64,000 bases of DNA from Prostheceraeus crozeri (lineage: Eukaryota > Platyhelminthes > Polycladida > Euryleptidae), in NCBI GenBank assembly GCA_907163375.1, contig CAJQUW010010395.1:53670-117669 (forward strand). The letters run 5' to 3'. The notes below the pieces were generated by a model, which made no database searches, was not told the DNA's origin, and worked only from the letters and a program-made list of their open reading frames with translations. The position numbers were made by a program, and so were the translations under genes. The stretch's first letter is position 1. Every line of letters begins with the position of its first letter. Of this stretch, positions 13,317 to 49,430 are shown piece by piece.

Positions 13317-15007
13317 ACAATAGCATCATCACCGCTTTTGCTAGCCATTCAGCGACACCTGCTTTTTAAGGCCTACATGACCACACTGCACGGGATACGA
13401 TCGAAATCTTTCTCCAGGTCTGTGAATCCATAGAAGAGGTGTTTGTAATAAGCCAGGAATCTTTCTTGTAGCTGTCTTTCTTCTCTAGAAAAAACATGTA
13501 AAATGCTCGCTGCAAAACATAATTCTTCGTCTAAAAATGGAGCAAGTCGAGAGCACTTAGTTTGTGGTTGGAACTGTCCAGCTTGCTACGGAGAACAGAT
13601 GGAATGTTTTCCTATCCATAGCACAAGTTGGTATTGAGTTTTTTTTTGTAAAACCATTCGACACTGCTTGATTCCATTTTCTATATGTGATGACTAAAAC
13701 TGTTGTTTTTTACATCAGACACAATGTTGCAATGGCATCACACATTTAAAAATTTTTGCAAGAAAATCGAGTAATGCGAGATCAACTCATTTTTAGCTTG
13801 AACTGTTGCGAAATAATTTCAATTCATGAATTTCTCACTACTGGAAAACATGAATTTTCCTAACATCTTGTGTGTATGTATCATTTGTCAAATTTTGAAC
13901 TGCGTAGCGATGTACAACTAAATCTGTTGCTCTGAAAGTATCAGTAAATCCTTCCAAATCCGTAATTTTGTCGGTCTCATAAGATACGTACCCGTGTTAA
14001 TGTTAATATTTACATAACCTTTTTTATTCATGTTTTAGTTAGGCTTTGTGATTGATGTCTTTGGCCTTCCCTCAATTTATTTGTGTCTGAAATTTTGCTA
14101 CAATTTTTTCCAAATGAGTTTATCCAATAAAGTAATCTGAATTTCTCTAAGTAGCTGCATGGATTTTCTTTTTGTGCGCAATATCAACACCTAATATTCA
14201 GTTTTATCCAGATATGTAAAATGGAGCGGACTAGAAGCGCTAGCAGCAAAGTTGATTTTTCTGATAACAGTTGTTGTAAGTTTCAGCTAATTGCCTAGAG
14301 AAATTAACTCGAGTGATTTTTAACAAGGCATTTCCATTTGTCTCAGGTAGCTGCCTGCAAGGTTGTCGGACTACAACAGGGGCAGTTAATATTCCGTTTT
14401 GATGAAGGAACTCTGACTAATAGCATCTCCCAAGTACCCTGCAAGATTGAACGTGCTATATTCTACAAAGCAGGCACTCCGTTGAGTCGTCATATAAAAG
14501 ATTAAGTACCCGATGCAAATTACATTGTGCAAGCACAATGTAAATGTACTTTGTTTGCGGATAACTCATTATTGCAAATCAGCAGTCGTCACTGTAACTC
14601 AGTTCACTCTTCAGTTCTGCTGCTACTGTGATGAACTAGCTCCTCTTCTCGGGCGAACAAGACTGCTTATAGCAGGGATGGGCCCCAATAAATCTGCATA
14701 ATGCATTCTTTATTTTATTCTTTTTGGGGCCCTTTTGAAGCATGAATTTCCGCTGTGGTCCCCGTTACCACATTCTCATTCCTATTATAAAAAAACACTT
14801 TCTCAACGAAGTGGATTGGAAATGTAATCGCTTCCTTCCTGATTATTGGCAATCATGAATTTGTGCGGTGATAACTTGACTGAATCCAGAGGGGTTAAAT
14901 GTATGAAGATCATAAAAGAAGTTTCAATAAATTTTGTGTAAGATGTTATGCGGACATAGATTTCTAGGAGATGTAATAAAAGTACTTCATTTCTTTTTTT
15001 TGTTTCA
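13317..15007. other. Stretch upstream of the TyrRS gene
   Basis: No coding exon seen. The promoter and any 5'-untranslated exon of the TyrRS gene probably lie here or further upstream, because the first coding exon is preceded by a splice acceptor. A loose inverted pair (GGGCCCC near 14681 and GGGGCCC near 14726) is the only repeat noticed. Confidence 0.35.
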
Positions 15008-15027
15008 GGTGATTAATTTCTCCGACA
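14997..15027 (+). other. Splice acceptor and 5'-untranslated leader of TyrRS
   Basis: A run of T followed by GTTTCAG ends at 15008, a strong acceptor. Nineteen bases later comes the ATG at 15028. This implies that a noncoding first exon lies upstream, its position unknown, and that translation starts shortly after the first splice. Confidence 0.55.
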
Positions 15028-15081
15028 ATGTCAGATCTTGACGTCGATGAGAAGATGCATCTGATTGAACGGAACTTGCAG
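15028..15081 (+). CDS. YARS1: TyrRS coding exon 1 (residues 1-18)
   Basis: Reads [18 protein letters not shown] and then donor GTATCT. It matches the start of animal cytosolic TyrRS, where EEKLHLITRNLQ is the usual form. The ATG is the only one in frame after the acceptor at 15008. Ends in phase 0. Confidence 0.85.
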
Positions 15082-18000: not shown

Positions 18001-21000
18001 ACAACATTTCTCAGGGTTGTCCGACCTCGTCTATTCTGATTTCTGTCATAATCGATGATAATAAGTGATGGCGGTCACAATTGTGACGAGATATCTATTC
18101 ATTGATCATAATTGCTATGACATGTGTGGTGGTTAGGGTTTGCTCCTACCAGTTGACAGTCGCATGTAAGCGGCTTGTACCTCAGTTGGTACAAAGATGT
18201 GAGGCTCGAATCCTGCCAGCCGCACATCTTTGGCATGGTAATTTGATTTGCCGTTTATCTCATTTCATTCTATTGTTAATAATTCATAATATTTGTTTAA
18301 GTTGCGTTTATTTCTTCAAAATAAAAGTCAAATCAATACAGGATGAAGTTGCACAAACACAAGTTGACAAGACTAATAGTTGTCATGCTGAAGTATTTAC
18401 TAAACCGATGTTTGTGGTATCGGTTCGACAAATTAGGTGAATTCATCGAATCGGACCCTTTTCTCAAAGATTTCTTTCATTTTCAGGAGGTGATAGGCAA
18501 GGACAAGATGCGAACGATCTTGAAAGCTCACGATCTGCGTTTGTATTGGGGCACTGCTACCACAGGCCGACCGCATGTCGCGTATTTCATCTGCATGTCA
18601 AAGCTGGCTGATTACCTGAAATCAGGTTGCGCAGTTGTTGTTTTATTCGCCGATCTTCATGCATATCTGGACAACATGAAAGCTCCATGGGAACTTTTAA
18701 GATGGAGAACGGATTACTATGAAGCCGTCATCAAAGCCATGTTGAAGGCAATCGGTGTTCCATTGGATAAACTGACATTTGTTCGCGGCACTGACTACCA
18801 GCTGAGCGAGTAAGTGAAGAGCAAGGAGAAGTTTAAAACTTGTGATGTTCAAATGTCATGAAAATGCTGATCAGACTAGGTCAGGATTGTATAGGATTCA
18901 AAGTCGCCGACAAGTTCGTTTCCCGAGAATCATTGTGAATTTCAAGAAATCAATTCTCGAGAAATGGTGCTTGGATCTCAGGACCTTAAAAAGGCTCCTA
19001 TTTTATGTATTGATTTATCACTAGAACCTGACAAAAAGTTGGAATTTTGAGGCAAAATATTTGCTGGCCAATGTCCTAAAACAGTTTCCAGAATTTAGTA
19101 ATATGCAACTTGGTTGAACATGTATTGATTTCTGTGGCACAGTGGTTAAGTGCTTGGCCTAGCAATCTTTTGTCCCAGAAGTCGAATCCCGAAGGTGTTA
19201 TTGGAAGTCGGCAGGAAGGGATCCGGACTTGAATCACCACAACGTTCCAGAAATATGTGACCATGTCATGACTGTTCAAGCCTCCGATATGGTAGAGTAG
19301 TGACGCTAAAGCTTCATTTGATATGCAACTGTTTATAAGAAACAGCAATACTCGTGATTGTACTCAAAGACCTGAGCCCAATAAGAAATCAGCTCCTTCA
19401 ACCCTTTCTCTACGGTCTATATACACCGATGAAACATCAAGTTAAAAGAATAGCTCTTGTCGGTTTTTTTGTTCTGCGTATAAAGTATTTTATGAGCGTC
19501 ATAATTCAAAGATTCTTGTCATGTAAACGGATGCTTCGCGAGTCTCTTTCACTGTATGATTATTCTCCTCTTATTAAAATTTAATCTTTTTATCTACGTT
19601 TTCTCTTCTCTCACAGCTTTTAAGGATGTTAGAGAAATTGCCTCTTGAGTCTGTGCTTTAGTTGTATTGTTTTCAAAAATGCAACCATTGTCTGAGATCT
19701 GCCCCTAAAACGATGTTAGTTGGATTGATGCTTAACTGATGAAACCTTTTTTCAGGAAATTGAGTCTAATCATGCAGCATGCTTTGGCGAACAGAGCCTC
19801 AAAGTTTCTGATCTTGCTATATTGGTTATTTCTAGTAGACTAACAGACGTTCGTGTGAGAAGTATGACGAATGTGAAACATCATGAGTGGTACGCGAATT
19901 GTAGGTGAATGTTTTTTTGATCGGATAGTGTGGACAAAGATCTAGTTACTTAAGTCTAGATACAAAGATCCATGATAGGTCTCTCATCACTTTTCCTTCT
20001 TTTCTTCACTTTTATACTTTTCTTATTCAACTGGGAGTCTTGATGCATAAGGCGTCAACTTCCGTCAATTTGATTAAACATTTACACAGGAAAGCAACAT
20101 TTCCATCTCATCAGATTTGCATGGAATGACATTATCTTAGCTGTACACTATTGTAGCCAGATGGAACATCGTTGGCTAAGCATGTGTTCTGTTTCCAAAG
20201 CTAGCCGGTTAAGTCATTTTAAATGAAAGTATCATCTGCGATTTCTAGAACCCTAATAACTGACCTGACGTCATCAGCGCCCCAACCTGTCACAGCAGTA
20301 GTCGATGACATTTCCCTTTATGTTTTCCTGACTTTGCCTATCTTTGACGACACTTCTGTCGTCATTTCGCCGATTGTGCTTTGTCTTTGCGGCTGAATTA
20401 ATTATGTATTCTCATAAGACATTTAGATTTCTATGATGACAATTGTTTCCATAGAGGGACACAAGGATGAAGACGTGAACAATGTGTTAAACGGTATTTC
20501 CCCTAAAAGCATCATCGCCGCTGCTTGCTGATTTCTATCTAAGGCTCTCTCATACGAAAACGTGCGAAAAACTGCTGAATTCCTTGTACCAGAGGTTGCA
20601 TTGACGGACTCTCTATTTGATGAAGTGATGGAACTAAACTTAATGCTTCTAGCTTTCCTATAAGATCTTTCTGAACCAAAATTATTCTTTTTGTATTCTT
20701 CGGTTACTGGGTGAAAGTGTCTGTAAAAAAGCGATCTCGAGATTGGGAGCAAACATATCTCAACATATCCTCATATATTGAAATACTGTTGCCGTCTATA
20801 TTTGGGAGGGGTTGTCTTCCTGCCTCTGCGATCCGCTCCCACTGAAAATGTCCTTCCTTTTACTTGCGCTGCGATGGCAACCCTAGACATCAATGCTTGG
20901 AGTCTGGTGACCAATACACTTCTTTTCTTGCTGGAATGATGAATCTCTGTTTCATACTCTTCAGTGACTATACAAATTGTTTTTCTGCTATTCTGCAGAC

Positions 21001-24000
21001 ATCAGTATTACGTGTTCAAGTTCTCTGAAGTTCTCACGTTATGTTTCACGTCATTCATCCACGACAGAAATATCGCCGCAATCATGCAGGTTTCATTCAC
21101 GTTACAACTGTACAACTGCTTCGGTTCATCATATTTGCACTCAATGAACTCATCAGTGCTATTAAAGAGAGCTCTAAGGGATCATTCAGACATTTTGACT
21201 TGAGACATAGAAGCGGAAGAGACACCACATGAGGATTAACGAGCATAAAGCCACTTTCACGTGATGACATCTGTGGAAAGATAGAAATTGCATCAATGAC
21301 GGAGATCAAAATACTTGATCATTCGTGAAATTCTTAAAAGAATAATCAAAAGAGCGTGTTGCATTGCCTAGTTATTCATTGCAGGTATGAATACGAATTT
21401 GGAAAGTTTCAGTTGATTATAAAAGAAAAACATGCAGTTATTTAATTCGATTCCATATTTTGAAGCAGCCAACCCGACCTGCCTTTGATTGAATAGTGAA
21501 GGGTTCGTACTTTTGTTGAAATGAATGTGGCACTAGAGTAAATGTATGTGTGTAATGCTGGTTTAACGTCACTACTCCCCCATACTGGGGGCTCCTACGG
21601 TGCTGACATAGTCAGATTTTCAAGTTTCGTGATCTTTTAGCACGGATGCCCTTACTGACTCCCATTGACACTCTCAGGGCTCGACCTCTGGACCAAAGGA
21701 TCGCTAGGCCAAGCACTTAACCACTGTGCCACGGAAACCACTGGCAAGCAGCTGACAGATAATAGCATCGTATGATAGGCAGGCAGAAGCATGATGAGCA
21801 GCACTGAAGACATGCTCTTATGTTCCTCTGACGATTTATAGCGAATTCACATGCGAAGAAATACAATCAACGTGAAATTCTACCGAGAAATGTTTGAACC
21901 ATTTTCCTGTGTGTGCTATCTTCCGAACCGTTGATGGGATGCGATAACTTTATCGATGAAGAATTTGTGTTCTATTTTCTGTGCAATTATCTGGATTCTT
22001 CTCACCTGAAAGGAACGTGCCGTCCGGACCATTTTAAGTTACATAAAAACATGATGCATTTAAGAAGCACGAAGATCATGGAAAAGTAAAAGAATGAATA
22101 TTAAACAAATTTCCTCATGGAAACCCCAATTCTCACCCATTTGTAAGTGATCTAAATCTGTTCCTGCTACTCAACCAATGAATGAAAACTCCTCCCATTA
22201 AATTCATGGCTCTGTCATAGCTCAATTGATGATTGTACATGTACCTGTGCTGAGCGGTCACCCGTGATCTAATTCTGTGACCATTGAAGCTATCATGTAT
22301 TGTTTCATAAAGATATCAACATCATGCATCAACACATTTCTTCTATGAAATCCAAGCCATGAAGCATACGCCATATTTTTGAATCTAAATTTTATAACCA
22401 TGAAATCAATCCACTATCGGTGCAATTATTATAACATCAAGAGAAAGATTTCCCCTGACGTAATTCATTTTCCTCTGCAGGGAATATTCCAAGGATGTTT
22501 ATCGCATGTTGGCCGCAGTCACTATCCATGATGCAAGAAAGGCTGGCGCTGAAGTTGTGAAACAAGTCTCCAATCCTCTCATATCTGGCCTGGTTTACCC
22601 TTGTCTGCAAGCCCTTGACGAGCAATATCTCAAGGTGGACGCGCAATTCGGAGGAACTGATCAGCGCAAGATTTTCACCTTCGCTGAGAAGTATATGCCA
22701 ATCCTGGGATACAAGAAACGAATTCATCTGATGAACCCTATGTTGCCAGGACTTACTGGGGCGAAAATGTCATCATCAGTTGAAGATTCCAAAATAGATT
22801 TGCTAGATTCCGCCGAAAAGGTGTCCCGAAAAGTGATGTCCGCAGTATGTGTTGAAGGTCAAGTGGATGATAATGGTGTCCTAGCTTTCATGAAGCATGT
22901 CGTCTTCCCACTCAGCCCTGAAGGTGAATACAATGATACACGCAGCTCTGATAAAGTGTTAAGCATGAGAGATAAAAATCTGATGGATAGGAAATACATG
23001 TTGATGTGGCGGAGATTTTGAAGCACCACCATACCATTGAAGAACATCGTAAGACCATTTGACCAGTTTGATATGAGAGAAACCCCAGTATTCTCTAAAG
23101 ATAGACCACAGCAAAGGAACTAATTATCTTCTAAAAAGGAAAAGGAAGCGGCTTTCAAGGCAGGAGAGATTGTTGGAATTAGAGATTGTTAGGAAAGATA
23201 TTAAGTTTTAAGCATTCGCCATGAAAGGACTAACTGCTATTATTTGTGAGCTTAGAAGCTAAGAGCATCTGTTAGATGCTTAGACTTGGAGAAATGGAAT
23301 AATTACAGTTGTTTATTAATTTTAAACAGAATTTTTGATAAATTACGTGTAATATATAAAGTACATGTAATGATAATCAGCCGCAATTGTTCCATTTAAG
23401 TCAGCTAAATGAAAAATTCGCATACTCTCACGCGTTTAATAAAGTTAGCATAACTACTGCATGATTTCGGAATTGGTATTGTAAATTCAATCCCATGCCT
23501 GCACTCGAAGAAGAATGGACGAAATGTATGGTGCAAAATGCTGGTATTTTCGGTTCTCTCAAATCGACTTTTGGCGGCTGTATTTGCAAGTTTAAATTAA
23601 ATAAAGAGAAATCATATGTTTCTTTTTCAGCAGTGACTATGGGAGGAAAGCAATACGCTGACTACGCATCAGTGGAAGCTGATTTCTTGAACGGAAGTCT
23701 TTCAGGTGAAGAATTGAAGAAAACAATCACCGCTTGTCTCAATCGCGTCCTAGATCCAGTTAGAGAAGAGTTTGAAAGTGATGAACGACAAACATTGGTG
23801 CAAAATGCATATCCGCAGTCAACAGAGGCGTCAACTGAAAGTGAGAACCTTCAAATTGCCACATTTTAGCGTTCGTTTGACTTCTTTCACCTACGTGAGC
23901 AATACAGCACTATGATTAAGTGGTGCTACTGCGTTTTGTGTGGTACTCTTATCAAGAAATTAGTAGCTATGGGTGTCACGTAATATTTAATGAAGTTAAG

Positions 24001-27000
24001 TGTTTTTTCCAGAATGTTAGGAAGCAAGAGACAGCAGATACGTCTGAATCATGTTTCTTACTAACTAGCGGCAATTGATGTATAAATTATGGTCCATTAA
24101 TTCATAAAATATGTTTGTATGCTGTTAGATAATTACGAATGTGATTTTGAACATGTTATTGTATCAATAGAGATGAACTTATTAAAACGTTCATTGTCAT
24201 GGAGCTAAACATACCACATTTCTCGCATAATAAACAGGTCAAAACAATATTTTTTGAGGTGAACCGGCCGATGGGACTGGCGGACACCAAATGTCTTAAT
24301 TAATTGAGTCAAATTATTGGAAGCAATAAGACATAATGCATCATGCAATTTGTATTGTACAGAACTGATCATAAAAACCGGACTACCTATATTTCGCTGA
24401 AATTGAATCGATTCTCATGCCTTCTAATTGTGCCACACATCATTCGAGAGCTTTCATTCTCAGCTTTAAAATGAGCTATGATGGGCTCGTATGCGTCTTT
24501 GTATTTGCTGAACAGTGCTAAAGATATTTGAAAACCACTCAATTTACAAATCGGTATTTTTCAAAAGGAAAACATGAGTATGATGATGAATCAGACACGT
24601 GGAGAACGAGCATTTTCTGAGCTCTTCTTTGATATACTGGTCATCAAAGTCGGTGAATTAGGAAAAAATTAGTGATATCGTGAAGTTATCACAAAGTTAT
24701 GACTCTTTGGCTGAATTCGGTTACATTCTCACTTTTTCATTAAAGATATTCATGTTTTGGTTTCTTCATAATCCTTGCGATGTAAGTAGTGGGAATATGT
24801 TAATTCTATGTTCAATTGTTCCTTTTCAAACGTCTTCAACATTTTTCCTTATTACCGCAGGAGTACACAAACACCATGTAAGGTAAACGGATGTTCAAAA
24901 CAAAACAATTAGTGAAGTCATGTCCTTGTTCTCTCACAGCGCCTGTAGATGGCTTACTTTGTGTGTTTGTGTGCTTTATCGTTAATGGGAAAAATGTCAA
25001 GACATTTGATGAAGAACTATTGAACTCATTTCAATAATTCTTACATATTCGCACTCCTTACATCGCAAAGATTCTGAAGACACCAAACATGAACATTTTT
25101 TATAAAAAAGTTTTATGAAAATATAACATTTTCAATCAAACGAGTCATGATTTTGTGATAACTTCAGGATATCACTAATTTTTTCATAGTTCACCGACTT
25201 TGATGACCACTATATCAAAGAAGATCTCAGAAAATGCTCATTCTCTCCATGCTTGATGATTCATTATCATGCTCATATGCTTTCCTATTGAAAAAAATTG
25301 TAAAAATTGAGTGATTTTCATATTTTGAATGCTGCTCAGCAACTACGATGACGGTGCAAAAGTCTATCATACTTCATTTTAAAGCTCTCGAATGATGTTT
25401 GGCACGTTGATGTGCGGTACGATTGGAAGGCATGAGAATCGATTCAATTTCAGAGAAATTTAGGTAGTCCGTTTTGCATGATCAGCTCAAGGACATCATT
25501 TGAATACTTTCCTTCGGACAATGAAACTCATTTTGCATCCTTTGATTTTTGTAGTGCTACATTTTTCAGTGATTACAAGAAATGGATAAATTTCTGGCGT
25601 TTTCTTGAGTACAGAATGAAGTGATTGAGCAAAATGCCATAAATCGCATAAAATGCCAATAGTCTCATGTGTTTTGTATTTGAAGTTCCGTCTTTGTGAA
25701 TTGCCGCTGAAGAGTTTCATGGACATGTGGCAGACTTACGTACATGCTGGTGTAGATACTGCATTTCCTAAGACGGTCTGAAAAGGAACTATAATGTGTT
25801 TGTGGATCTCAGAAATCGCGTCATTTTATAGCAGATCTTGTAGCTTCGAAAATCGGATTGTTGCCATCTTCTCGTGATTCGGATAATCCACAAATAGCTG
25901 AAATTTCGTCAGTATCAAATGAATGACATGCAATCGAAATTCTTTACAGAATCTGCGGCGGAGAAGGAAGCTATGTTAGAGGCATTGACTACTGAATTAG
26001 AAGGCCTTTCCACGCGGAATCTCTTGGAATTGAGAGAACAAATGTGCGGTGATGGAGACTCTGTCAAAGTGAAACACAGAGAACGCCCCAATGTGGTATG
26101 GTCGGTGCGCACTGCTGGACCACCGCATTTAGGCCTGCTAGTGCCTCTCCAGCGTCTGAGCAACCTGGCAAAGGCGGGATGTGATGTAAGTACGATAGCG
26201 ACATCCTTTTCTAGTACAACAATGTCCACTGTATTTCTACCTTAGATTTATAAGCGGAAAATTACAGCGGTCCATGCCTTTCAAGACAACTACCGCTGTG
26301 GGGGCATTCAAGAGATCAAATTTAGATTGAAGTATTTTCAGCATTTTTGGAGCATTAACGCATATCAAGTACGGTACTTATGGATTATATCCCCACGCTT
26401 TCAAATTTGTTTAATTCGTAGAATTGAATCAATCGCCACAAAACTTTAAGCACGTGATTGAGGATATTTTCTACCCACATGCCAAAATTTATGCAAATCC
26501 GAAAAGTACCTTATGAATTGGGGGCGATAACTTGAAGTGCAGCGATGTCTGCAGTTTTATCTGACTTCTTCTGACCTCATCGTCTGAGCACAAAGCACTT
26601 GAGGTCAACAAAGTCATGTCCCGACAACTCGTGAAGTGATGATGACCAGGCCACATCCCCTAAATTAGCATTTTTAATTTAAAATAGGTGCGGTAGGGCA
26701 GTGGTCGTGGTTTGTGGATGAGACGAAGAGGGAGAGAGAATAATGCACAGACGAAGTCAAATCAATGACATCACTACACTTCATGTTATTTTTGTCATGA
26801 ATTTTAGACATTATGTCAGATTTTAGACAAATTTGAAAACCTGGGGGAGGGGGAGATAACCCATAGGTACCTCAGGTACAGTATATGATCAGTTTTCACA
26901 CGAATAAAGATCAACTCACTCATTCCACGTGTAACGTCTGCTTTTCACCGTATTGCGATGGTTGGACGCGATCCACAGGGTGCAAAAAGTTCAATCATAT

Positions 27001-36000: not shown

Positions 36001-39000
36001 TCCTTCATCCCAAGGTTCAAGTAAGACTTTTCAGTCGTGTTGTAGTGTCGCTCAGTGACAGATCAAGTCTCTTCTAAATCCAATGTGACTAACTTTGGCG
36101 AAATTTGAAGAATTTGGAAAACCTGAAAATGTGGGGGGAGGGAAGAATAGAAGTACCAAATTTAAGGTCAATGAGAATACTTGAATCAGCATTTTCTCGA
36201 ATATCTTCCGTCACTAACAATTTAAAAGTACTATCCGATTAACTACCTAATACAATCGGATAGTATTTCATCGCAAGTATGCCTAGCCGTAATGACTTTC
36301 ATCAATCAGCATTTCAAGGCAATCTCATTGAAGTTCCAAGGAAGAGAGTCTATGATTCATGTCCTGGATACAGCATTGACATCTCCTTTACCGGAATTGA
36401 TGCAGAAGTTTATCAGGAAAAACCTGCTAACAGGATCAGACAAAATAATGAGGTTTGTTGTGATTTAGCAAATATTAATCCAACAAATTCTGAAAATATA
36501 TTGTCTACCAGGAAGACGATGTTGGAACGGAAGCCAAGTTAATGAAGTTTTTGAAAGAGACGTCGAGAGATTAAAGAATACCTGTGTTGATATCTTCGTG
36601 GTCAGCAATCAACTAGTCTTTTTTACTTTTTATTCGACGGTGCTAAAAGACCTATTCATGCTTCACCTGGATAAACGTCGTTATCCTCAATACCCCGTTT
36701 ATCCCTAACCGTTCTGGGAGTACTGAAGCTCGACTGAACAATTAGAAACTGTATCAAAAGAAGATATCTGCAATGAAGTGAGGATTGAATGCTTGAATCT
36801 ATCAGCTTCCGTCGTTTCATTGCTGTTCGATGTCATAGAATGAATATCGGGAAAAGCTTCAAAACTAACATCGGAAGTGTTCTCGAAGAGCATCTGGATT
36901 ATCTCTTCAGGAAAAGAAGAATCGATCAATGTTGGGAGGTATCAAAAGTCACGGACAATTAGGAAATCTGAGGTACAGGTGTTTCTGAAACCTATCGAAA
37001 TATATTTAAACTCCTAGCCACTGCAATGCGTCCCCCTGAATAATCAGATTTTTAGCTGAATAAAGCCATATTGGATGTTCACGGGCTTCCTGGACAAACA
37101 AACGCTTGCGGCGGTTTATTACAAAGCTATTAATAAGCACACGGTCGACTAGATAACATGAACAATGTGATATGATGTTCTTTTTGTCAATTCACCCCTA
37201 GTGAAATGTCAACAAAAATGCTTTCTTTCTTTTAGCTTCATTGACGCCATTCAAACGCAAAGTTCCAAAGATATCAATAAATGAGAAAAGAGTTGTCATT
37301 GATTTGAAAAACATTCCATTGCAACTTCAGACTGATATGAGGATTCAGCCATGGACCTCCATGACTGAATATACTGCAAACGCAAAGTGAAAGTGTCACA
37401 ATAATGACATACCTAACATGTGAATTTTGCGATAGTTTACTTTTCTTATATAAGCAATTTTTTTCTTATGAAAATGTTCGTATAAAATCCATTAACTACC
37501 TCCTGATGTTGTTAGAAAATCAATGCTCTGCACATTTATCGACTATTGATCAAAATGTAATGCGAAATATGCACTCACCCGGTGGAACTACAAATCACAT
37601 TTCATCCTCCCATGTAGAATTGTGAAAATGCACATGTTAGGTATTAACCACTTGTCGCAAAGTTCACATGTCAGAAATTGTACTTGTCCTTGAAAATTAC
37701 ATGTCGGGTATTATTGCGCCAACGGTGACATAAGCGTTGATAATTGGTTTAAATAGTAAAATTGGTCAAGATTTTCTCAATTTCAATTCAAATCAAATTT
37801 CTAAGATTTGAACTGTACGTTAGTACATCAGATGAGATATCTATAATTTGAGTTCATGCTGAAGAGGACCTTGTGCACATTTTGTGATTACGTATAAAAT
37901 ACAGAAAGGATGCTGCTTTTGCTGCAAAAGTGCATTTCTGGGGTAATTAGTCGAAAAGACCCGAAAATGTTGGGAAGCGATCTCAGGTCGCAACGATGCT
38001 AACATGATTAGTAAACCAAATAGATCTCTCTATAGTATCCTAAGTAATAAAGTTAAGAATGAGAAGCATGATACTGTCATCTCTGTATCTTGCTGAATGA
38101 TAACTATAGGTGCAATGACCGTTTTATCATCTGTAAGTTTACCTAGTATATTAGGTCCGGAAGTTTACATCGGCAAAAGTAGCCACCCTTTTTATTTAGG
38201 TTATGCTGAACATCGTGACAGCACCAACGCTGGCAACAAAGTCAGTGCCCTCTCTGATCACTTGTTGCAGAAACATCATTATTTTGATGTATGAAATATT
38301 GACAAATGCAGAGATCGTGTTGTTACTACATTGTCTGAATCTCGACAAATCAGATCTTTGGAGCCTTAACTTAATAGAAAGATCGAAATGACCGATCTCT
38401 AATCGATTTGTGTCAACTGTGTATCATAATTTTGTTCGTGTGCGCATTTTCATGCTTTTGTGAATTTTTCTGTGCCTTGACAAAGAACGAACGTCCGAAA
38501 CGTCTGCAATATGTGCAATTTCGAGAAATTTGGCCTTATCATTACATCTAGAAGTATCACCGGAAAATCTCATCTTCAAATTATGAATGCCAAGCACCAC
38601 CTGCTCATGGCTCTCTTGTGTAAACGATGTTTTTTTTCATAAGAACGATTTATCATTGAGAGAAACGGGCTAATGTGAACAACAGCAGTGTTGCACATGC
38701 AGGGCAATTGCATTTCAATTTACCATTTTAGTTATCGTTCTATTGTTAATTTTTCTTTGTAATGGATAAAGAAATGACATTTCTGCTAGTGTGATTTTGC
38801 TTTGTAGCATCCTGATGCGAGCACCTTGTTCATCGAGGAAGTTGACTTGGGAGAAGACGCTCCTAGAACTGTCGTCAGTGGCTTGGTAGACAGAGTGCCA
38901 CAGGAGGAGTTGGACGGTTCTCTCGGTGTTTTCCTCTGCAATTTGAAGCCAGTGAAGATGCGTGGCGTGGAGTCTAAAGCCATGCTCATGTGTGCCTGTG

Positions 39001-42000
39001 ATGCTAACGATCCCAAACAAGTGCGGCCTCTGCTTCCTCCCGACGGAGCTGCACCTGGTGAACGGGTGTTCTTTGAAGGCGCCGATGACAGACAGCCCGA
39101 CGCTCAACTGAATCCAAAGAAGAAGGTTTGTGAAGATTTTGTGAAATGTATTGAAATTAAGAACACATTTTATGCGACATTATCGACTGCTGTGTTTAGC
39201 AAGCCCTAGTTCGCCAGGTTTGGGGCAACCATAGCTTACGTGATGGTGTGTATGATCAATCACGTTTTCACGCAATCTCACCAGTTGAAGGGGAACTTCT
39301 CTATCACGTGATGCTCTCTGTCGCATTCAAGCAATGTGGAACCGTTTCTTAGCCGAAACTGGATATGTGTGCGGCTCGAGAAGACTTAGCCGAAGCCGCA
39401 GCTAAGCCGGTTTTAGCCGCCTCAGCTAGGCAGTATGTTTTTCATTCACGCGTGTTAGGAAAATCGACCTACCTCTACTGACTTAAATCTCACAATAAAT
39501 TCCATCTACCTGTATATCATGAATAGAATACTGATGAATTTAAATTGTAAGCAGGGGTGTGCCGCCGTGGTATGGAAGTTGCACTACCAGGCACGCTCTT
39601 TCGGCCCTGTGTAGTCTGCGTCCGGGGTCGCGGAGCAGTGGTATGGTTGTCCCACCTCGTGAACCAGTTTACAAGAGGAATCCAATAGTCTAAATAGACC
39701 AACCAAAGTAGCTCTTTCAATGACTCGATTACAAACAGTCGGCGGTTTTCTTAGCTTGTACGTATGAAATTCCATGAGCTAATAGTATCAACGGACCACA
39801 TCACAAATAGAGCCACTGGGTGGGTTGAGACAAATAGCGTGATTGAGACCACGTCGCGTTGATGGCTTAAATGGAAAAGTGGTTGAGTATGCAAGTGCGC
39901 AGGCTTAGCCTTGCAAACAAGTAGATATTGTGGGATAACTCTGATGAAACATGAGTTTCTGTATTTTCTTACCTCATATTTCTGTTTGATTTTTACCTTT
40001 GTGTAGAGTTAGATGAATTTTCCAATGCTGGCAGAAGTTATGAGTCTCACATCATATCGGTTCCAAGATTTTTAGTGGAACCGATTGGCTCCGCTTTAAA
40101 CGTCTCTAACACGGCCATGAAGCCGAATACGTGTAGCAAAAAAGCTACAGACGAAAATCCTTCGAATACTTGTCTTGCGAGCAAAGTAAAAGAAATTTCG
40201 AACGAAAATAGTAAAGGAAATTTATAAAATAAAGAAAAAAACAAACTTTCACTGGATGAAGAGATTGAAGAATTCAAGACAAAACAATTCGATTTGAATT
40301 AAAAGTTCGGAGATGATTGTCAAAATGCTGCACACCTCGATCTTACAACAAAGCTGATCAAATTGTCTCGAACTCAAGGAACACCGCTGATGTTAATGCA
40401 CATTCGCTCTGCTGAGATTCTGGCACCGGGCAGCTCGTGACTTGGTCATGTATTGGTTCTGTATTGGCTGCATTGCATCTCCAGCCAATCTTTCCTTGTA
40501 AGTGCAGTAAAGAACGCTGCATATTTATCCTTTATCGTGGAATAAAATGAATAGCTTGTCTTCAGCTAGAGCAGGTTAAATTGTCAAAATATTTCAAACT
40601 AAAAATTTACAATGAATCATTGCCAACGAGAAAATAAAAGACGAACACGAGGCGACTCACTAGGCTCAACACAACACGAAACACGACCGCGCTCGTGTCA
40701 CGGCGTGTTTGGCTGTTTTATCGATAGTATTATTACTTATCTAAACTGCGAAAATTTCAAGACCACGTGTTATTCGATGCTCAACCAGAGTGGGACACGG
40801 ATTCAGGACCCGCGCACACCGCGCTGGTTCTGGCACGAGTCGGGTCTGAACCTTGAAACTCGTGAGTCCATCCGCGGTTTGACAAAATAATACAAAACTG
40901 CTAAGATGATGAATTTCTTAGTCCGGTTGTGACCACTGAAGCCTCAACTGCGGATGCAATGGACCGCTCGAGATGGAAGAGGAAAATTAGGCCGCCCCTT
41001 CGCTGGGACAAGGCCTTTCCAGTTGAGCAAGGTTTAGATGATGCGACTCCTGGCTCTTAAAACAATGTCTCTATTAATCCCCGCCAAACAGTATATAATC
41101 TTTTCGCTACAAGATAAGCAATAGTTCATTAAGATACATTGACTCATGAATGGGGCGTTGATGATGCTATCATCCCTTGAATAAGGACAAATAAGCACTC
41201 TCAACCAACTACAAAAGAGACTGTCGTTTGTTTTACAAATCCCCAGTACTTGGTAATTGAAGTAGTGTCCAGTTTGTTAGATTGTACTCTCGCTTTGATA
41301 TTTCAACTTCGGTCTTTGATAATCCAAGCCAGGTGAGTAGCATCAAGATTTAGTCATGACCCTTCATTGCATTTACCGGTCTCTGCAGTTTTGCCCCAAC
41401 TTATCTACCGACATTTGCTTAAAATTGACATGAAATTATCTGGTGGATCTTCATTCAGCTACGTAGCTCCAGTGGAATGGAATGGTTTTCCTCAGACAAT
41501 TCGTGGTGCTCAGTCACTCAATTCTTTTAAACGACTGTTAAAAAATTTCCTTTAGTCAAATGCCTTCACGTGACTATCAGTTTCTGTTGATCGTTATTGT
41601 CAACAGTGTTTCTCTGCGCTGTGAGCCACTTGGGTACTGCGCAATATAAATGTAGTGAATAAATAAATAGATTTCTCATGGATCGATTTGCCCTAAAAGT
41701 GGTTCTTTATTCTTATGCTGATGCAATGTCTGATGATTTTGAAATGTTTGTCAAAGCACCTCAGTGGGCGAAAGTTGAACTATCTACAAAGAGAGGGTAT
41801 TCATATGCATTGCTCACTGAGCATATTTCAAGAAAACTAGTGAATAGTCAATAGTCAATTATTCATAAAATCACTAGGCATAGCATTATTCATCTGTCTT
41901 GCACGAACATCCTAATTATCAATAACCTTGAAGTGCACGCTGCATAGATAGGCAGATTGACTATAGATTTTTCTTAGCATGAATCTTGAAATTCGTATTT

Positions 42001-43806
42001 TTTCAAGTTCAAGTCTCGAGATTCTTCATTTTTGGCAGCAATAGTTATTGGCACAATTTATGCAATGCATTGTATTGCAATCATTGCGGAATAAGTAATC
42101 TCGAAAAGCTTAGTTTTATGTGTAACTAATTTTAATCAAGTGTTGATTTATCATCTAAAAATATTGCCTAACTGCCTCACTGGCATGGTCTGAAATGATG
42201 TTGATTTAGAAAGAAAACGTGATCATTTTCAGAGGTATCAAAACATGACTTGTCTTTGAAGAGATAGCTATTGAATTTCCAAAATGAAAGATACGAATCC
42301 GCGGTTTTACGCTATTACTACTGTGCAGTTTTTGAAGTAGAACTTTAGACTGTATTGCGTTGTGATAAAGCAGATACAATTTGAAACTTATCTGTCTAGC
42401 AAGCTTGAGTGAAAAGAGAGCATCAAGAATGGCAATGTCTTCGCCTACTTCCTTTTCAATTCGTTGTTTGATGAATGTTTTGGATTCTCTATGTTTCGGA
42501 TCACTCAAACGTAAGCCTGTAGAATTACGCCAGGTGGACGGAAGTTAAATTCACAACGATATTGAATTGGGATTCAAATCGAAAAAAGTACTATACGGGT
42601 TTTTAAGGAAAATATCAGATACTGATCCTATGAAAAATAGACGAACTAGTGAGACAAAATGGACGAAATCAATGGTGCTATTAGTACTAATAGCATAATT
42701 TATTTGAGTAATAATCATGATTTGAGTCGACTCCGGCTTTTGATAGGACTCCGACTCCGGGTGGCAAATATACAAAGCCTAGTTTTCTGAAAAATTAACT
42801 GGCGACCTACATCATATAACCATTTTTCAAAATAATTGAGCACTCTCTTTTTCTTTAAAGCCGAAATGTAGATACTAGTGCACTATACATACACTTAAGT
42901 CGAAGGAAAGTCTTAATGAAATCTTACAGATATCGGCATAGAAAGGTAATAGTGCAATATTAACAGCATTCACGTGTATAATGTGTCAATTATGAATTTC
43001 ATCTTTCATCTACCGTTCTCTACATTTCCACTGGTTGACAGCTAAGCTGAGTTGTAACCGATTTGTCGCCTGCCTGAAGTTTGAACTTTTAAAGCAATCA
43101 ATTTCTTTTTATGTTAAATACGAGTGGAGGGAGTGAGAGCGCGTAGTGGGGGAGGGTCGCAGCCACCCCCTTCCAACAGGCATGTTAATAAAAAAATCAC
43201 TGATGGCTGGGAGTGCAGCAATCCTGCTTTTGTAGGCTGAAAATGTGTTTTGCATGCTCTTCTGTGAAAGTTTTCATCATTTTCCAGAAATTATGCATAT
43301 CAATCACAAAACATATGTCCTCTGGAGATAATCTGTCATGTCCTGTCCATAATATGAACAACAGTGGAATTTTCCCTCACGAAGGGCGAAGGAATTCGCG
43401 AAGTCCATAATTGCTCTGATTTGTTGGTCGACCCGCTTGAAACTCAGATGAAATGCACTCATATTTATGTGCTTGTATAACTTGTACATCTGTCTGTAGG
43501 CTGTTTATACTCGTAGACGACTTGGATGAATCGCCGATGAATTGCTTAATTAAACAGGCTAATCACGAATCACTTCTTCGAAAATTAAGTCTTAAATCAA
43601 TTTTTTGGAGATCTTCAACTGATTGTTTCATTTGCCAGTGTTAGAAGTTTTGTGATCATTTCCTTTTTATCTTGCAGGTTTGGGATAAACTAGCCGTTGA
43701 TCTGTCCGTGAATGCAGACTCTATAGCAGAATGGAAAGGTCTGGAAATGTGTACGGCTCAAGGCTTAGTTACCGGACAAGGACTAGTGAACGTGCCAATC
43801 AAATAA
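15028..43806 (+). CDS. YARS1: Double-length tyrosyl-tRNA synthetase with EMAP-II-like C-domain (9 coding exons, 897 aa)
   Basis: Joins tyrosine to tRNA-Tyr in the cytosol. Exons: 15028-15081, 18487-18809, 22481-22923, 23631-23840, 25950-26185, 28623-29250, 30467-30819, 38808-39125, 43678-43806; all junctions are GT..AG and all phases agree. Unit 1 (1-343) is a class I Tyr[10 protein letters not shown] at 38-45, HIGH-type PHVAY at 47-51, tyrosine-pocket Y165, Q169, D172 and Q187, and KMSSS at 221-225. Unit 2 (about 345-700) is a second TyrRS fold, recognisable by PHLGL (402-406), KAGCDVTIL (418-426), [10 protein letters not shown] (522-531) and [13 protein letters not shown] (600-612). It has lost the pocket (V393, R517, T521) and reads KMRPV for KMSSS. 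Residues 733-897 are the EMAP-II-like tRNA-binding domain. Human YARS1 has one unit (528 aa). A split into two genes is the alternative, see the separate entry in the rejected list. Confidence 0.85.
15320..15361 (-). ncRNA. Hammerhead ribozyme relic
   Basis: On the minus strand: stem I CTACGA pairs with TCGTGG (6 bp, one G-U), the core CTGATGA is canonical, stem II is AGC/GGC-like with loop TCATCA, then CGAAAC follows. Core, stem I and the GAA block are all in place for a type I hammerhead. The base before the presumed cleavage C is G instead of U, and stem III is poor, so this copy is probably inactive. Such ribozymes are known in Penelope-like elements and in some SINEs. Confidence 0.5.
15365..15426 (-). 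mobile_element. tRNA-like SINE head next to the hammerhead relic
   Basis: Minus strand: TGGCTTTATGGCTGG at 15426-15412 fits a pol III A box and GGTTCGAACC at 15374-15365 fits a B box, at tRNA-like spacing. The hammerhead-type core follows within a few bases. I infer a tRNA-derived retroposon with a ribozyme in its body. Boundaries beyond this are not visible. Confidence 0.45.
15776..15972. repeat. MITE-like hairpin
   Basis: AAAATCGCAAGATGCATTAG near 15823 faces its complement CTAATTCATCTTGCGATTTT near 15931, giving arms of about 30 bp (CAGAAAAATCGCAAGATG..). AAAAGTTAATTG occurs just outside on both sides (15778 and 15959), either a 12-bp target duplication or the outer part of the element. 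Confidence 0.5.
16000..18160. other. TyrRS intron 1, remainder
   Basis: No exon, repeat or structured element that I can support in this part of intron 1. A short minus-strand frame at 17792-17983 contains [13 protein letters not shown], faintly like an RT motif B, but without company. Confidence 0.35.
18170..18223 (+). repeat. tRNA relic lacking the anticodon arm
   Basis: GCGGCT at 18170 can pair with AGCCGC ending 18223; between them lie a D-arm-like GTACCTCAGTTGGTAC and a T-arm-like GGCTCGAATCCTGCC. The total is about 54 nt because the anticodon arm is missing. It is a tRNA-derived fragment (SINE or tRNA pseudogene), not a working tRNA. Confidence 0.45.
18487..18809 (+). CDS. YARS1: TyrRS coding exon 2 (residues 19-126): HIGH-type motif
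   Basis: Acceptor TTTCATTTTCAG, donor GTAAGT, ends in phase 2. Carries [13 protein letters not shown] and [11 protein letters not shown], so most of the ATP and tyrosine site of unit 1. The position of the human ELR cytokine motif (after WELL) reads RWR at 90-92. The reading frame is open upstream of the acceptor, so the exon start rests on the splice site and on the family boundary at EV(I/L)G. Confidence 0.9.
19131..19310 (+). mobile_element. tRNA-derived SINE, family S, copy 1
   Basis: Starts TCTGTGGCACAGTGGTTAAG (A box) with CTTGGCCTAGC, a B-box-like AGTCGAATCCC, then the body ATTGGAAGTCGGCAGGAAGG, and ends GAGTAGTGACGCTAAA. Four copies in this window share this layout of about 180-190 bp. 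Sits in TyrRS intron 2, sense. Confidence 0.75.
19620..21550. other. TyrRS intron 2, middle part
   Basis: AT-rich; a minus-strand frame of 109 codons (20423-20752) has no recognisable motif. Nothing else seen. Confidence 0.3.
21558..21739 (-). mobile_element. SINE family S, copy 2
   Basis: Reverse complement of the same element: GGTTTAACGTCACTACTCC at the left end and AACCACTGTGCCACGG at the right end, with GGTCGAGCCC-type B box as GGGCTCGACCTCTGG. Antisense to the TyrRS gene in intron 2. Confidence 0.75.
22481..22923 (+). CDS. YARS1: TyrRS coding exon 3 (residues 126-274): KMSSS loop
   Basis: Acceptor CCTCTGCAG, donor GTGAAT, phases 2 in and 1 out. Contains [35 protein letters not shown] and GAKMSSS. 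The donor GTGAAT is weak but gives the only in-frame join to exon 4. After KMSSS the family's lysine-rich KKKLKKAFCEPGN block is replaced by [13 protein letters not shown], a clear local loss of conservation. Confidence 0.85.
23631..23840 (+). CDS. YARS1: TyrRS coding exon 4 (residues 274-344): end of unit 1
   Basis: Acceptor TTTCTTTTTCAG, donor GTGAGA, phases 1 and 1. Encodes the anticodon-side helical domain ([27 protein letters not shown]). Compared with human TyrRS about six residues before GG are missing and the anticodon-contacting W283 position is M277. If the donor is not used, the frame runs on for ten codons to a stop at 23867-23869, which would end the protein after unit 1. Confidence 0.8.
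24229..24234 (+). terminator. Candidate intronic polyadenylation signal
   Basis: AATAAA lies 360 bp after the in-frame stop that is reached when exon 4 is not spliced. It could end a short transcript coding for unit 1 alone, a single catalytic TyrRS unit of about 353 aa. In AT-rich DNA a single AATAAA is weak evidence. Confidence 0.3.
24350..25500. mobile_element. Fold-back element, family A, copy 2
   Basis: Arms of about 350 bp: AAAACCGGACTACCT near 24375 faces AGGTAGTCCGTTTT ending 25475, and GAATCGATTCTCATGCCTTC near 24406 faces its complement near 25426. The middle (about 24720-25130) is unique. Same family as 650-1550 but better preserved. Lies wholly in TyrRS intron 4, between unit 1 and unit 2. 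No transposase frame. Outermost bases and target duplication are uncertain. Confidence 0.7.
25950..26185 (+). CDS. YARS1: TyrRS coding exon 5 (residues 344-422): start of unit 2
   Basis: Acceptor ATTCTTTACAG, donor GTAAGT, phase 1 in and 0 out, matching exon 4. The [10 protein letters not shown] stretch followed by PHLGL aligns with the nucleotide-binding start of unit 1; the catalytic tyrosine position (Y38) is V393, and the TGxPHVAY motif reads AGPPHLGL. The exon ends after KAGCD, exactly where the TyrRS family continues with VTIL in the next exon. An in-frame ATG at 25919, upstream of the acceptor, is the alternative start if unit 2 were a separate gene. Confidence 0.8.
26186..27370. other. 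TyrRS intron 5, first part
   Basis: No feature supported. Two overlapping frames near 26885-27173 show no motif. Confidence 0.3.
27371..27560 (+). mobile_element. SINE family S, copy 3
   Basis: TATCCGTGGCACAGTGGCTA head, CTTGGCCTAGCGATCTTTCG, B box AGGTCGAGCCCC, body AATGGAAGTCGTCAGGAAGG and the end CCGTTAAACTAACA. Sense in TyrRS intron 5. Confidence 0.8.
27561..28622. other. TyrRS intron 5, second part
   Basis: AT-rich intron sequence, nothing seen except the acceptor of exon 6. Confidence 0.35.
28623..29250 (+). CDS. YARS1: TyrRS coding exon 6 (residues 423-632): degenerate catalytic core
   Basis: Acceptor CTATCATTTTAG, donor GTAAGA, ends in phase 1. Begins [15 protein letters not shown], the counterpart of [14 protein letters not shown]. 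The tyrosine pocket is gone (R517 for Y165, T521 for Q169), DAQFGGTDQ reads DIRLGGDEG, and the ATP loop is KMRPV at 580-584. After it, [13 protein letters not shown] (600-612) is nearly identical to the human sequence, so the exon is half ruined and half strongly conserved. No stops or frameshifts. Confidence 0.85.
29251..30466. other. TyrRS intron 6
   Basis: AT-rich intron, no inserted element recognised. Confidence 0.4.
30467..30819 (+). CDS. YARS1: TyrRS coding exon 7 (residues 632-749): anticodon-side helices and start of EMAP-II domain
   Basis: Acceptor GACTTCTTCAG, donor GTGAGT, phase 1 in and 0 out. [11 protein letters not shown] keeps the full length of the loop that is shortened in unit 1; H641 stands at the human W283 position. 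[17 protein letters not shown] matches the family's HPGDLKNSVEVALNKLL. A linker of about 30 residues leads to RLDLRVGRI (736-744), the first strand of the OB-fold tRNA-binding domain. Confidence 0.85.
31472..31504 (-). ncRNA. Hammerhead-type motif in Penelope pLTR, copy 1 (3' end)
   Basis: Minus strand, 33 nt: stem I ACCT with AGGT, core TTGACAA, stem II GAC-CA-GTC, GAA, short self-complementary stem III ACATGT, and cleavage-site C. This is the type I layout with very short stem III known from Penelope elements, which work as dimers. The core C3-G8 pair of the canonical ribozyme is replaced by T3-A8, which keeps pairing. Confidence 0.6.
31610..34051 (-). CDS. Penelope-like polyprotein: reverse transcriptase and GIY-YIG endonuclease
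   Basis: 813 codons with no break. RT blocks in order: [12 protein letters not shown] (about 265), [10 protein letters not shown] (about 340), [12 protein letters not shown] (motif A, about 415), [18 protein letters not shown] (motif B, about 485), [11 protein letters not shown] (motif C, catalytic YVDD, about 525) and LPFLDV (about 565). Near the C-terminus, [18 protein letters not shown] starts a GIY-YIG nuclease with the following R-x-REH. It copies the element's RNA and nicks the target. The first codons lie inside the upstream repeat, so an alternative start is possible. All visible catalytic residues are present, so the copy may be active. Confidence 0.9.
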   Translation of the reverse strand: MTSKAFCALFIYKITNRHNCFNYIKRLLPGDKVKQLDWLLTLRCRRAKLMKKIEFDRLCIKYGIYTSRLRKQLKKNHLSATPNVCQDFLQTELCNDLELLKGIDDSINQVASVLHSLDLIGLFKFHKMSKFVVNQTLKRCVAKYQRLRDACAPIFPEDMEKRIINLSSLTLSTTQKQALCLGLNFCVPPRRTEQIRINAEFESLFQQLQDVCHSTSEDLSVFKAKLVSLASTYGSARIERSCLLPCHIDELIDLKKNPNIVILKPDKGSGVVIMDKHDYVDKVNSILSDQTKFQVDQCQKDQSANIAKSISDTLLKLKRKQVISDYTYKELTTSSNGIPRLYGLPKTHKSNVPVRPILSMTKTVYENVSKWLVSLLKPVERCFSNFCVKDSFTFAESIRGIDSSATSMMSFDVSALFTNVPVSETIRLIVDTVRKCPNLCGIPADILSELLYKCSSNVQFLFDGQFCRQVDGVAMGSALGPLFANIFIGNLESSLSSHIDSLCHVYYRYVDDTFALVRSREAGESLLDIFNSFHPHINFTYECEEQGRLPFLDVSIQRMSDGKLCTTVHRKPTFSGVYMSFHSFVPIAYKRGLVRSLFIRALRICSDEMLDQEFNTIRAILKSNAYPEHFIDQYEVTEINNVSVATAERKAVYVNLPFYGDKSSLFIRKSIDELLAKFAPAAKPIIIFKTNCIPVASPKDRLPVAATSSVIYSFRCGCGSTYIGRTSRPLTVRAREHIPRWFLNGHLGISRSAITEHVLSCCSVPNDPISKFEIVCHAYNDRILRILEALFIRRDNPNLCKQKDHVINLRLPW
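34087..34119 (-). ncRNA. Hammerhead-type motif in Penelope pLTR, copy 2 (5' repeat)
   Basis: Identical to the motif at 31472-31504, in the upstream direct repeat and in the same orientation. Together the two would release an RNA unit of about 2.6 kb if active. Confidence 0.6.
34746..34778 (+). ncRNA. Hammerhead-type motif in inverted pLTR copy
   Basis: Same 33-nt motif on the + strand, in the inverted terminal copy. Being in opposite orientation it would not act on the element's sense transcript, but would be present in TyrRS pre-mRNA intron 7 in sense. Confidence 0.6.
34931..35105 (+). mobile_element. SINE family S, copy 4
   Basis: TCTCCGTGGTACAGTGGTCA head, CTTGGCCTATCGATCTTTCG, a damaged B box (deletion after GGTCCAGA), body ATTGGAAGTCGTCAGGAAGG and the end GTAGTGACGCCAAACC. 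It lies about 70 bp beyond the Penelope target duplication. Confidence 0.75.
35106..36270. other. TyrRS intron 7, stretch without features
   Basis: Nothing supported. A C-run near 35757-35765 and GGGGGGAGGGAAG near 36135 are the only low-complexity spots. Confidence 0.35.
36279..37390 (+). other. Cluster of unidentified exon-like frames in TyrRS intron 7
   Basis: Three open stretches on the + strand have plausible splice sites. From 36279, [19 protein letters not shown] continues to NRIRQNNE at 36451, then donor GTTTGT. Acceptor TTGTCTACCAG at 36511 leads to [20 protein letters not shown] and a stop. Acceptor TTTCTTTTAG at 37235 leads to [20 protein letters not shown] and on to a stop at 37388-37390. 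On the minus strand 36705-36929 is also open ([19 protein letters not shown]). I recognise none of these. They could be a small nested gene, a broken one, or chance. Confidence 0.25.
38130..38520 (+). pseudogene. Penelope-like element remnant (GIY-YIG and 3' tail)
   Basis: [20 protein letters not shown] at 38158 onward, followed by [18 protein letters not shown], is a worn GIY-YIG nuclease end (YIGxTxRxxxxRxxEH). About 180 bp later CCTTGACAAAGAACGAACG and TCCGAAACGTCTGC repeat the hammerhead-type pattern of the intact element (core TTGACAA, CGAAAC, ACGT-C). So this is the 3' part of an older, different Penelope copy; the RT is gone. Confidence 0.6.
38808..39125 (+). CDS. YARS1: TyrRS coding exon 8 (residues 750-855): EMAP-II-like OB fold
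   Basis: Acceptor TTGCTTTGTAG, donor GTTTGT, 106 codons, phase 0 on both sides. [28 protein letters not shown] and NPKKK are the hallmark stretches of the tRNA-binding domain shared by animal TyrRS, AIMP1/EMAP-II and bacterial Arc1p-like proteins. Conservation is high, so the C-terminus of this long protein is under selection. Confidence 0.9.
40006..40227 (+). other. Unidentified exon-like frame in TyrRS intron 8
   Basis: After the acceptor-like TTTGTGTAG, a frame of about 72 codons reads [20 protein letters not shown], continues through [20 protein letters not shown] and stops at TAA. It is rich in S, N and K like the frames at 36279-37390, and may belong with them. No motif is recognised. 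Confidence 0.2.
41340..41670 (+). mobile_element. LINE 3' end (CR1/L2-like)
   Basis: The frame at 41367-41555 ends in [18 protein letters not shown] and [13 protein letters not shown], the standard C-terminus of CR1/Jockey-group reverse transcriptases (AxxLWNxLPxxIRxxxSLxxFKxxLK). It is followed by a 3' UTR with GCGCAATATAAATGTAGTG and a short ATAAATAA repeat tail, as expected of this group. Strongly 5'-truncated. Sits in TyrRS intron 8, sense. Confidence 0.75.
42723..42815 (-). repeat. Fragment of the hAT family found at 1841-2616
   Basis: GACTCCGGCTTTTGATAGGA and GACTCCGGGTGGCAA followed by AACTGGCGACCTAC match, in reverse complement, 2455-2545 of the element near the start of the window. 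Terminal CAGGG ends are missing, so it is a partial copy. Confidence 0.7.
43678..43806 (+). CDS. YARS1: TyrRS coding exon 9 (residues 856-897) and stop
   Basis: Acceptor TTTATCTTGCAG, then [12 protein letters not shown] and further to QGLVNVPIK and TAA. It matches the human end KVFEKLQADFKIS...CIAQWK. The extra tail beyond the OB fold is typical of TyrRS. A clear poly(A) signal was not found right after the stop; an AATAAA occurs at 44452. Confidence 0.85.
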   Translation, partial: VWDKLAVDLSVNADSIAEWKGLEMCTAQGLVTGQGLVNVPIK

Positions 43807-49004: not shown

Positions 49005-49430
49005 CTGATATTCCGCTCTATTTCCGATATCGGATTTTGGCCGATTAATCGCTACATATGCGGTATCCACCTGTTTTGTCGCTCTATTTCCGATATCGGA
49101 TTTTGGCCGATTAATCGCTACATACGCGGTATCCACCTGTTTTCTCGCTCTATATACGATATCGGATTTTGGCCGATTAATCGCTACATATGCGGTATCC
49201 ACCTGTTTTGTCGCTCTATTTCCGATATCGGATTTTGGCCGATTAATCGCTACATACGCGGTATCCACCTGTTTTCTCGCTCTATATCCGATATCGGATT
49301 TTGGCCGATTAATCGCTACATATGCGGTATCCCACCTGTTTTGTCGCTCTATATCCGATATCGGATTTAGGCCGATTAATCGCTACATATACGGCATCCC
49401 ACCTGCTTTGTCGCTCTATATTCGCTATTG
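49005..49430. repeat. 66-bp minisatellite, about 6 copies
   Basis: The unit starts TTTCCGATATCGGATTTTGG and continues CCGATTAATCGCTACATATG. Units alternate between two variants (CATATGCGG with TTTTGTCGC, CATACGCGG with TTTTCTCGC), giving a 132-bp higher-order period. 66 bp is 22 codons, so both strands stay open over several copies; this is periodicity, not coding. The last two copies decay. Confidence 0.85.

Follow-up and report, generated by a model that had tools for sequence, protein, structure and literature searches.

The question raised by this locus is how a gene that carries two tyrosyl-tRNA synthetase (TyrRS) units in a single reading frame could serve as an enzyme that usually works in pairs. 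TyrRS is normally a homodimer whose tRNA site straddles both subunits, as stated in a passage of PMC8319005. In the 64-kb window, by which we mean the whole stretch of DNA that was analysed (about 38% GC), the plus strand holds a double-length TyrRS gene at positions 15028-43806, with nine exons that encode, in order, a first TyrRS unit (unit 1), a second one (unit 2) and an EMAP-II-like domain. Our preferred reading, to which we give a probability of about 0.74, is that the gene encodes one 897-residue cytosolic TyrRS in which the two units fold together as an intramolecular pseudo-dimer, with unit 1 as the catalytic half and unit 2 as the anticodon-reading half.

Reconstruction of the gene from the letters of the window gave 897 codons and a TAA stop codon at 43804-43806 as a single frame, with agreeing phases at all eight junctions and GT-AG borders at all eight introns. 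A nine-exon, 897-codon frame with two TyrRS units and an EMAP-II-like domain had been given in a preliminary description, and our reconstruction returns the same ends to the base. Unit 1 starts in exon 1 (15028..15081, aa 1-18), where the alignment to human TyrRS begins at residue 7, and continues with its catalytic domain in exon 2 (18487..18809) and exon 3 (22481..22923) and its anticodon-binding domain in exon 4 (23631..23840). Exon 5 (25950..26185) encodes a linker and the N-terminal part of unit 2, exon 6 (28623..29250) the catalytic domain of unit 2, and exon 7 (30467..30819) its anticodon-binding domain, a linker and the start of the EMAP-II-like domain. This tRNA-binding domain continues in exon 8 (38808..39125) and reaches its C-terminal end, together with the stop codon, in exon 9 (43678..43806). 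When the joined protein was compared with Pfam, two stretches of tRNA-synt_1b and one of tRNA_bind were found, the latter at aa 739-834 and beginning in exon 7.

The splice sites were ranked by a simple score, with assumed site frequencies, against the 3360 GTs and 3625 AGs of the window. On this scale, the eight donors range from the 94.0 to the 99.9 percentile, and six of the eight acceptors from 91.8 to 99.9; the weakest acceptor of the model is that of exon 5 (79.7), followed by that of exon 8 (84.4). Upstream of the start codon, the acceptor TTTTTTTTGTTTCAG, which ends at 15008, scores at the 100.0 percentile, the top of all window AGs, and leaves a 5' untranslated stretch of 19 nt (15009..15027). 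This acceptor, 19 nt before the ATG (the whole feature spans 14994-15027), suggests either an intron in the 5'UTR or trans-splicing of a spliced leader; the latter, if true, would narrow the phylum.

Other features of the window are mostly mobile or repeated DNA. Intron 7 contains a retroelement at 31371-34854, whose 833-aa frame on the minus strand (31610-34111) matches a reverse transcriptase (Pfam RVT_1). It has inverted arms at 31396-31863 and 34387-34854 (99% match) and 300-nt direct repeats that are 99% alike, and it looks young; we take it to be a Penelope-like element with a GIY-YIG-like end. By eye, a 393-aa frame at 52758-53939 resembles the C-terminal half of another Penelope-like element, with no Pfam match above the cut-off, and a reverse-transcriptase fragment of another retroelement lies at 7940-8323 on the minus strand (Pfam RVT_1, E 2.5e-17). 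A transposase fragment at 47856-48704 (Pfam DDE_Tnp_1_7, E 3.7e-38) is presumably of the piggyBac type, and a cysteine-rich frame at 59504-59704 looks by eye like a piggyBac C-terminus, with no Pfam match. There are also two tandem arrays, one of a 66-nt unit at 49014-49432 (6.3 copies, 94% matches) and one of a 70-nt unit at 58320-58652 (4.8 copies, 96% matches). Its unit length being divisible by three, the former shows long frames on both strands, probably by chance. Rfam gave no match at gathering scores in the window, and ARAGORN found no tRNA in it.

Unit 1 (aa 1-343) has the residues of a catalytic TyrRS. Its match to human cytosolic TyrRS has an E value of 7e-143, with an identity of 63% to the human and 50% to the yeast enzyme and of 73.5% to the human one over the catalytic domain only. 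The tyrosine pocket, for which we assume the set of five residues of the M. jannaschii enzyme, is complete (Y38, with Y165, Q169, D172 and Q187 in exon 3), and the HIGH-like HVAY (aa 48-51, exon 2) and KMSSS (aa 221-225, exon 3) motifs are both as in human TyrRS. The NCBIfam TyrRS equivalog NF006330 accepts unit 1 with 258.9 bits at a cut-off of 220. Unit 1 thus has the domain, the equivalog score, the motifs and the pocket of a class Ic TyrRS (archaeal/eukaryal type).

The anticodon-binding domain of unit 1 is degenerate. In the phmmer alignment it lacks six residues, human 279-284, including the invariant Arg279 and Trp283 as well as Gly284, with the gap falling at 23641/23642 in exon 4, and the invariant Asp308 is replaced by Glu301. 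We take Trp283 and Asp308 to be anticodon-reading positions, with F296 and D321 as their yeast counterparts. MAFFT places the gap near human 272-278, and we cite the deletion after phmmer; with the MAFFT placing, unit 1 has Ser, Val and Thr at human 279, 283 and 284, so the loss holds either way. No other exon 4 acceptor that we tried repaired the domain. The acceptor as modelled stands at the 99.0 percentile; one at 23634 (96.0) makes the product one residue shorter and does not undo the deletion, one at 23607 adds about the missing length but stands at 16.9 and does not restore the RDEKWGG letters, and those at 23511 (86.8) and 23514 (53.8) add about 40 residues with no TyrRS similarity by eye. 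The deletion lies four codons from a phase-1 intron and might have come from a shifted splice acceptor.

The state of unit 2 (aa 344-713) is the reverse. It still matches human TyrRS with an E value of about 2e-59, at an identity of 34.7% to the human enzyme and 27% to unit 1. One of the five tyrosine-pocket residues is kept (Asp173), and the others are changed by Y39V in exon 5 and by Y166R, Q170T and Q188R in exon 6. HLGL (aa 403-406, exon 5) stands where HVAY is expected, and KMRPV (aa 580-584, exon 6) replaces KMSSS. NF006330 rejects unit 2 (147.9 bits against the cut-off of 220), as do the motifs and the pocket. In its anticodon-binding domain, on the other hand, Arg637, His641, Gly642 and Asp666 (in HPSDLK) occupy human 279, 283, 284 and 308; the His is at the Trp283 site, where the references shown carry Phe, Tyr or Trp. 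The loss of most catalytic residues in unit 2 rules out two equal active units. The preliminary description had treated the units as equivalent, and this has to be corrected: they are unequal, unit 2 being degenerate in catalytic residues and unit 1 in anticodon residues.

To place these losses on a common scale, we used 44 reference TyrRS, namely human, yeast and 42 archaeal loci. A genome collection had given 51 TyrRS loci (49 archaeal and two from CPR bacteria, with no animal among them), and nine of the 51 were dropped, either for lacking a motif-matching frame (L014, L016, L028, L036, L038, L040, L045, L050) or for being short (L015). At columns conserved in at least 98% of the references, unit 1 keeps 32 of 33 and unit 2 12 of 33 in the catalytic domain (human 7-232), while in the anticodon domain (262-342), where the test is limited to just five such columns, unit 1 keeps two and unit 2 all five. 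The motifs YWGTA[TP]TG and H[VC][AG]YF[VI][PC]M had served to find the loci, and conservation over these stretches is inflated as a result; a catalytic recount that omits human 38-57 gives 25/25 for unit 1 and 8/25 for unit 2. Over the whole of human 233-342, the numbers are 4/7 and 7/7.

Columns kept by one unit only (unit 1:unit 2) divide 21:1 in the catalytic and 0:3 in the anticodon domain (Fisher p 0.0017), or 17:0 and 0:3 without human 38-57 (Fisher p 0.0009), the p values being a guide only since columns are not independent events. At a threshold of 90%, the anticodon contrast shrinks, with 6/10 columns kept by unit 1 and 7/10 by unit 2; the references miss at most two of these ten, unit 1 misses four, and unit 2 three, two of them Tyr to Phe. 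The catalytic columns at 90% number 59, of which 33 are missed by unit 2, 4 by unit 1, 6 by the worst reference and 1.2 by the mean reference. Judged by these residues, the two halves have lost complementary functions. Such complementary losses, as reported for Leishmania, support the intramolecular pseudo-dimer that the preliminary description had proposed.

We also modelled exons 6 and 7 singly, with TyrRS rows as the input alignment, which itself favours a TyrRS-like model. The exon 6 model has a mean pLDDT of 71.8 and a pTM of 0.68, and its best match is human TyrRS (E 1.8e-10, TM-score 0.68 over the query, rmsd 4.5). Its longest stretch with a pLDDT below 50, residues 144-163, falls at the expected site of the KMSKS loop. 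In the exon 7 model, ten-residue blocks have a mean pLDDT of 89-97 over residues 1-70 and the remainder is poorly modelled; it matches the TyrRS anticodon domain, with human first (E 4.6e-4). As models of single exons, both are silent on the pairing of the halves.

The origin of the gene can be read best from unit 1. In a 46-row tree with no trypanosomatids among its rows, it groups with human TyrRS (support 95/89), and against PDB sequences it scores 479 bits with the human and 95 bits with the L. major enzyme. The end branch of unit 2 is 4.49 in the same tree, where it is not placeable. An origin separate from that in Leishmania, as claimed in the preliminary description, is supported by the 63% identity of unit 1 to human TyrRS and by its grouping with that enzyme; on the same grounds, we reject descent from a trypanosomatid gene. 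The tail points the same way as to animal affinity: among PDB sequences, the C-domain of human TyrRS (1ntg) matches it with an E value of 3.3e-52, ahead of AIMP1 (2.6e-47). We therefore regard the protein as an animal-type TyrRS, on the basis of the identity of unit 1 to the human enzyme, the 95/89 grouping and the EMAP-II-like tail. A phase-1 intron lies at a near-equal place in both units, within the codon for human 275 in the first and for human 274 in the second; the units therefore probably share it and go back to the duplication of a TyrRS gene. A tblastn search with the joined protein found one EMAP-II-like domain in the window, after unit 2; it found neither a second copy after unit 1 (the next hits, with E values of 5.4 and 8.9, are far from intron 4) nor a copy of exon 1 before unit 2. 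Scanning of viral contigs gave no confirmed relatives.

The claim of a single protein depends on exons 4 and 5 being joined in the mRNA, for which the phase, a good donor and the limits of homology speak; the join is probable, and it is also the weakest link of the claim. The aligned ends of the units, at aa 338 and 364, leave only 25 codons between them, which favours the join; a study on helminth fusion artefacts (PMC12964723) reports that interdomain stretches are shorter in real fusions. The same study finds that fusion genes predicted in helminths are often artefacts, which counts against the join if the source is a helminth. Alternatively, exons 1-4 and 5-9 could be separate transcripts, made from an own promoter or by trans-splicing, with two proteins that split the labour as a heterodimer. 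Past its donor, exon 4 stays open for nine codons up to the stop at 23867-23869, so that a short unit 1 protein is conceivable, and intron 4 holds one AATAAA, at 24229. The acceptor of exon 5 is the weakest of the model, in-frame ATGs stand just upstream of this exon, and the strong 5' acceptor at 15009 could mark trans-splicing, making operons possible. However, the exon 4 donor at 23841 is phase-matched, stands at the 97.9 percentile and lies directly after the end of the unit 1 homology, and the unit 2 homology begins soon after a phase-matched acceptor. Within 25800-26000, moreover, no acceptor exceeds the 90.8 percentile (the best is at 25835), and the halves are separated by 2.1 kb, which would be long for the intergenic spacing of an operon. 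We consider two separate proteins unlikely; even for separate halves, the reciprocal losses would favour an obligate heterodimer.

The remaining explanations accept the long frame and assign it another role. Unit 1 could homodimerise with the unit 1 of another chain, leaving unit 2 as an appended regulator or moonlighting domain outside charging, and both the great divergence of unit 2 (end branch 4.49) and the full set of tyrosine-pocket and motif residues in unit 1 would fit this. Yet unit 1 is without Arg279, Trp283, Gly284 and Asp308, of which unit 2 keeps three, with His at the Trp283 site, and there is no reason why a free regulator should have retained anticodon residues, which makes this arrangement quite improbable in our view. 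The locus might also be a paralogue, or a copy in decay, with a canonical TyrRS gene present at another place in the genome; we rate this as about equally improbable, if not slightly more so. A working paralogue is compatible with the sequence, but decay is at odds with the 73.5% identity of the unit 1 catalytic domain to human TyrRS and with intact sites and frames. In simulations with random substitutions (200 runs each), neutral decay of the 343 codons of unit 1 to 35% or 27% amino-acid identity produced on average 11.9 or 13.0 stops, and at least four in every run, against none in the real unit 2 and none in all 897 codons; chance is a very poor explanation for such an open frame. Open frames and intact splice sites rule out a pseudogene.

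The preferred reading of an intramolecular pseudo-dimer would work as follows. In a normal homodimer, one tRNA-Tyr lies across both subunits: the acceptor end enters the active site of one, and the anticodon rests on the other. Following an internal duplication, this labour would have been divided: unit 1 would activate tyrosine and charge the acceptor end, and unit 2, no longer activating tyrosine, would serve as dimer partner and read the anticodon. The EMAP-II-like tail would add general tRNA affinity, and the single chain, folded on itself, would offer one productive tRNA site. The gene model, the homologies, the opposite residue losses and the folds predicted for exons 6 and 7 singly come from the sequence, whereas we infer the exon 4-5 joining in mRNA, that the halves pair within a single chain, the activity and what the tail does.

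Like human cytosolic TyrRS (1n3l, 7rou, 1ntg), the protein has catalytic and anticodon domains and a C-terminal EMAP-II-like domain; unlike the human enzyme, a homodimer of single-unit chains, it has two unequal units per chain. Double-length TyrRS of trypanosomatids and Arabidopsis are mentioned in passages of PMC8319005, PMC9437257, PMC9978631, PMC11580382, PMC3532385, PMC5370408 and PMC7564348, not each of which covers both. Two units in one chain are also found in the trypanosomatid enzymes (L. major 3p0h/3p0j, L. donovani 5usf). For the Leishmania pseudo-dimer, passages of PMC8319005 report that the C-terminal unit has lost KMSKS and that the N-terminal unit has a six-residue deletion affecting its anticodon domain; the reference list of PMC8319005 includes a T. 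brucei paper whose title states that both TyrRS units are required. The same pattern is seen here by residues only, with the C-terminal KMSKS lost, the N-terminal anticodon site damaged and the C-terminal one kept; the deletion is of equal length in both, a likeness known by length and not by place. The KMSKS motif has become KMRPV here and ARAVL in Leishmania. In contrast to the trypanosomatid enzymes, the present protein has an EMAP-II-like tail and an animal-like unit 1 that groups with human TyrRS; for the former, a passage of PMC3532385 gives 682 aa and TyrRS_core twice, with no EMAP-II-like domain listed.

In Arabidopsis At1g28350, two TyrRS coding sequences are likewise fused, as described in parts of PMC7564348 and PMC9437257. 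It differs from the present gene in that HIGH and KMSK motifs are ascribed to both of its units (a passage of PMC9437257) and that a TyrRS EMAP-II domain was not found there, according to a passage of PMC7564348. The preliminary description had also been unaware of any description in animals, and the absence that this implies does not stand as worded: one clause of PMC7564348 says that double-length TyrRS is 'also found in nematodes', with two citations that are, by title, Leishmania papers, and it may be a slip. A nematode double-length TyrRS, known from that clause alone, would if real be an animal enzyme of the same organisation; C. elegans synthetases are discussed in passages of PMC4394549, which give no length for TyrRS. 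Among the matches listed in the open-licence literature, there was no description of a double TyrRS with an EMAP-II tail. The double-length TyrRS itself is already known, and what is new here is probably the EMAP-II tail and the separate origin.

Tentatively, and at somewhat below even odds, we propose that an animal lineage has independently evolved a single-chain TyrRS made of a catalytic half, an anticodon half and an EMAP-II tail, with the same order of halves and an N-terminal deletion of equal length, and that this is a convergent locking-in of half-of-sites use that is undescribed for animals. Should the halves prove to be joined in RNA, a homodimer would once more, and apparently separately, have changed into an asymmetric single chain with a trypanosomatid-like split of duties. 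The half-of-sites question of TyrRS would then be open to a comparative test, and the animal EMAP-II tail would be compatible with the change to a pseudo-dimer. If the organism is parasitic, the architecture of its enzyme would differ from that of human TyrRS.
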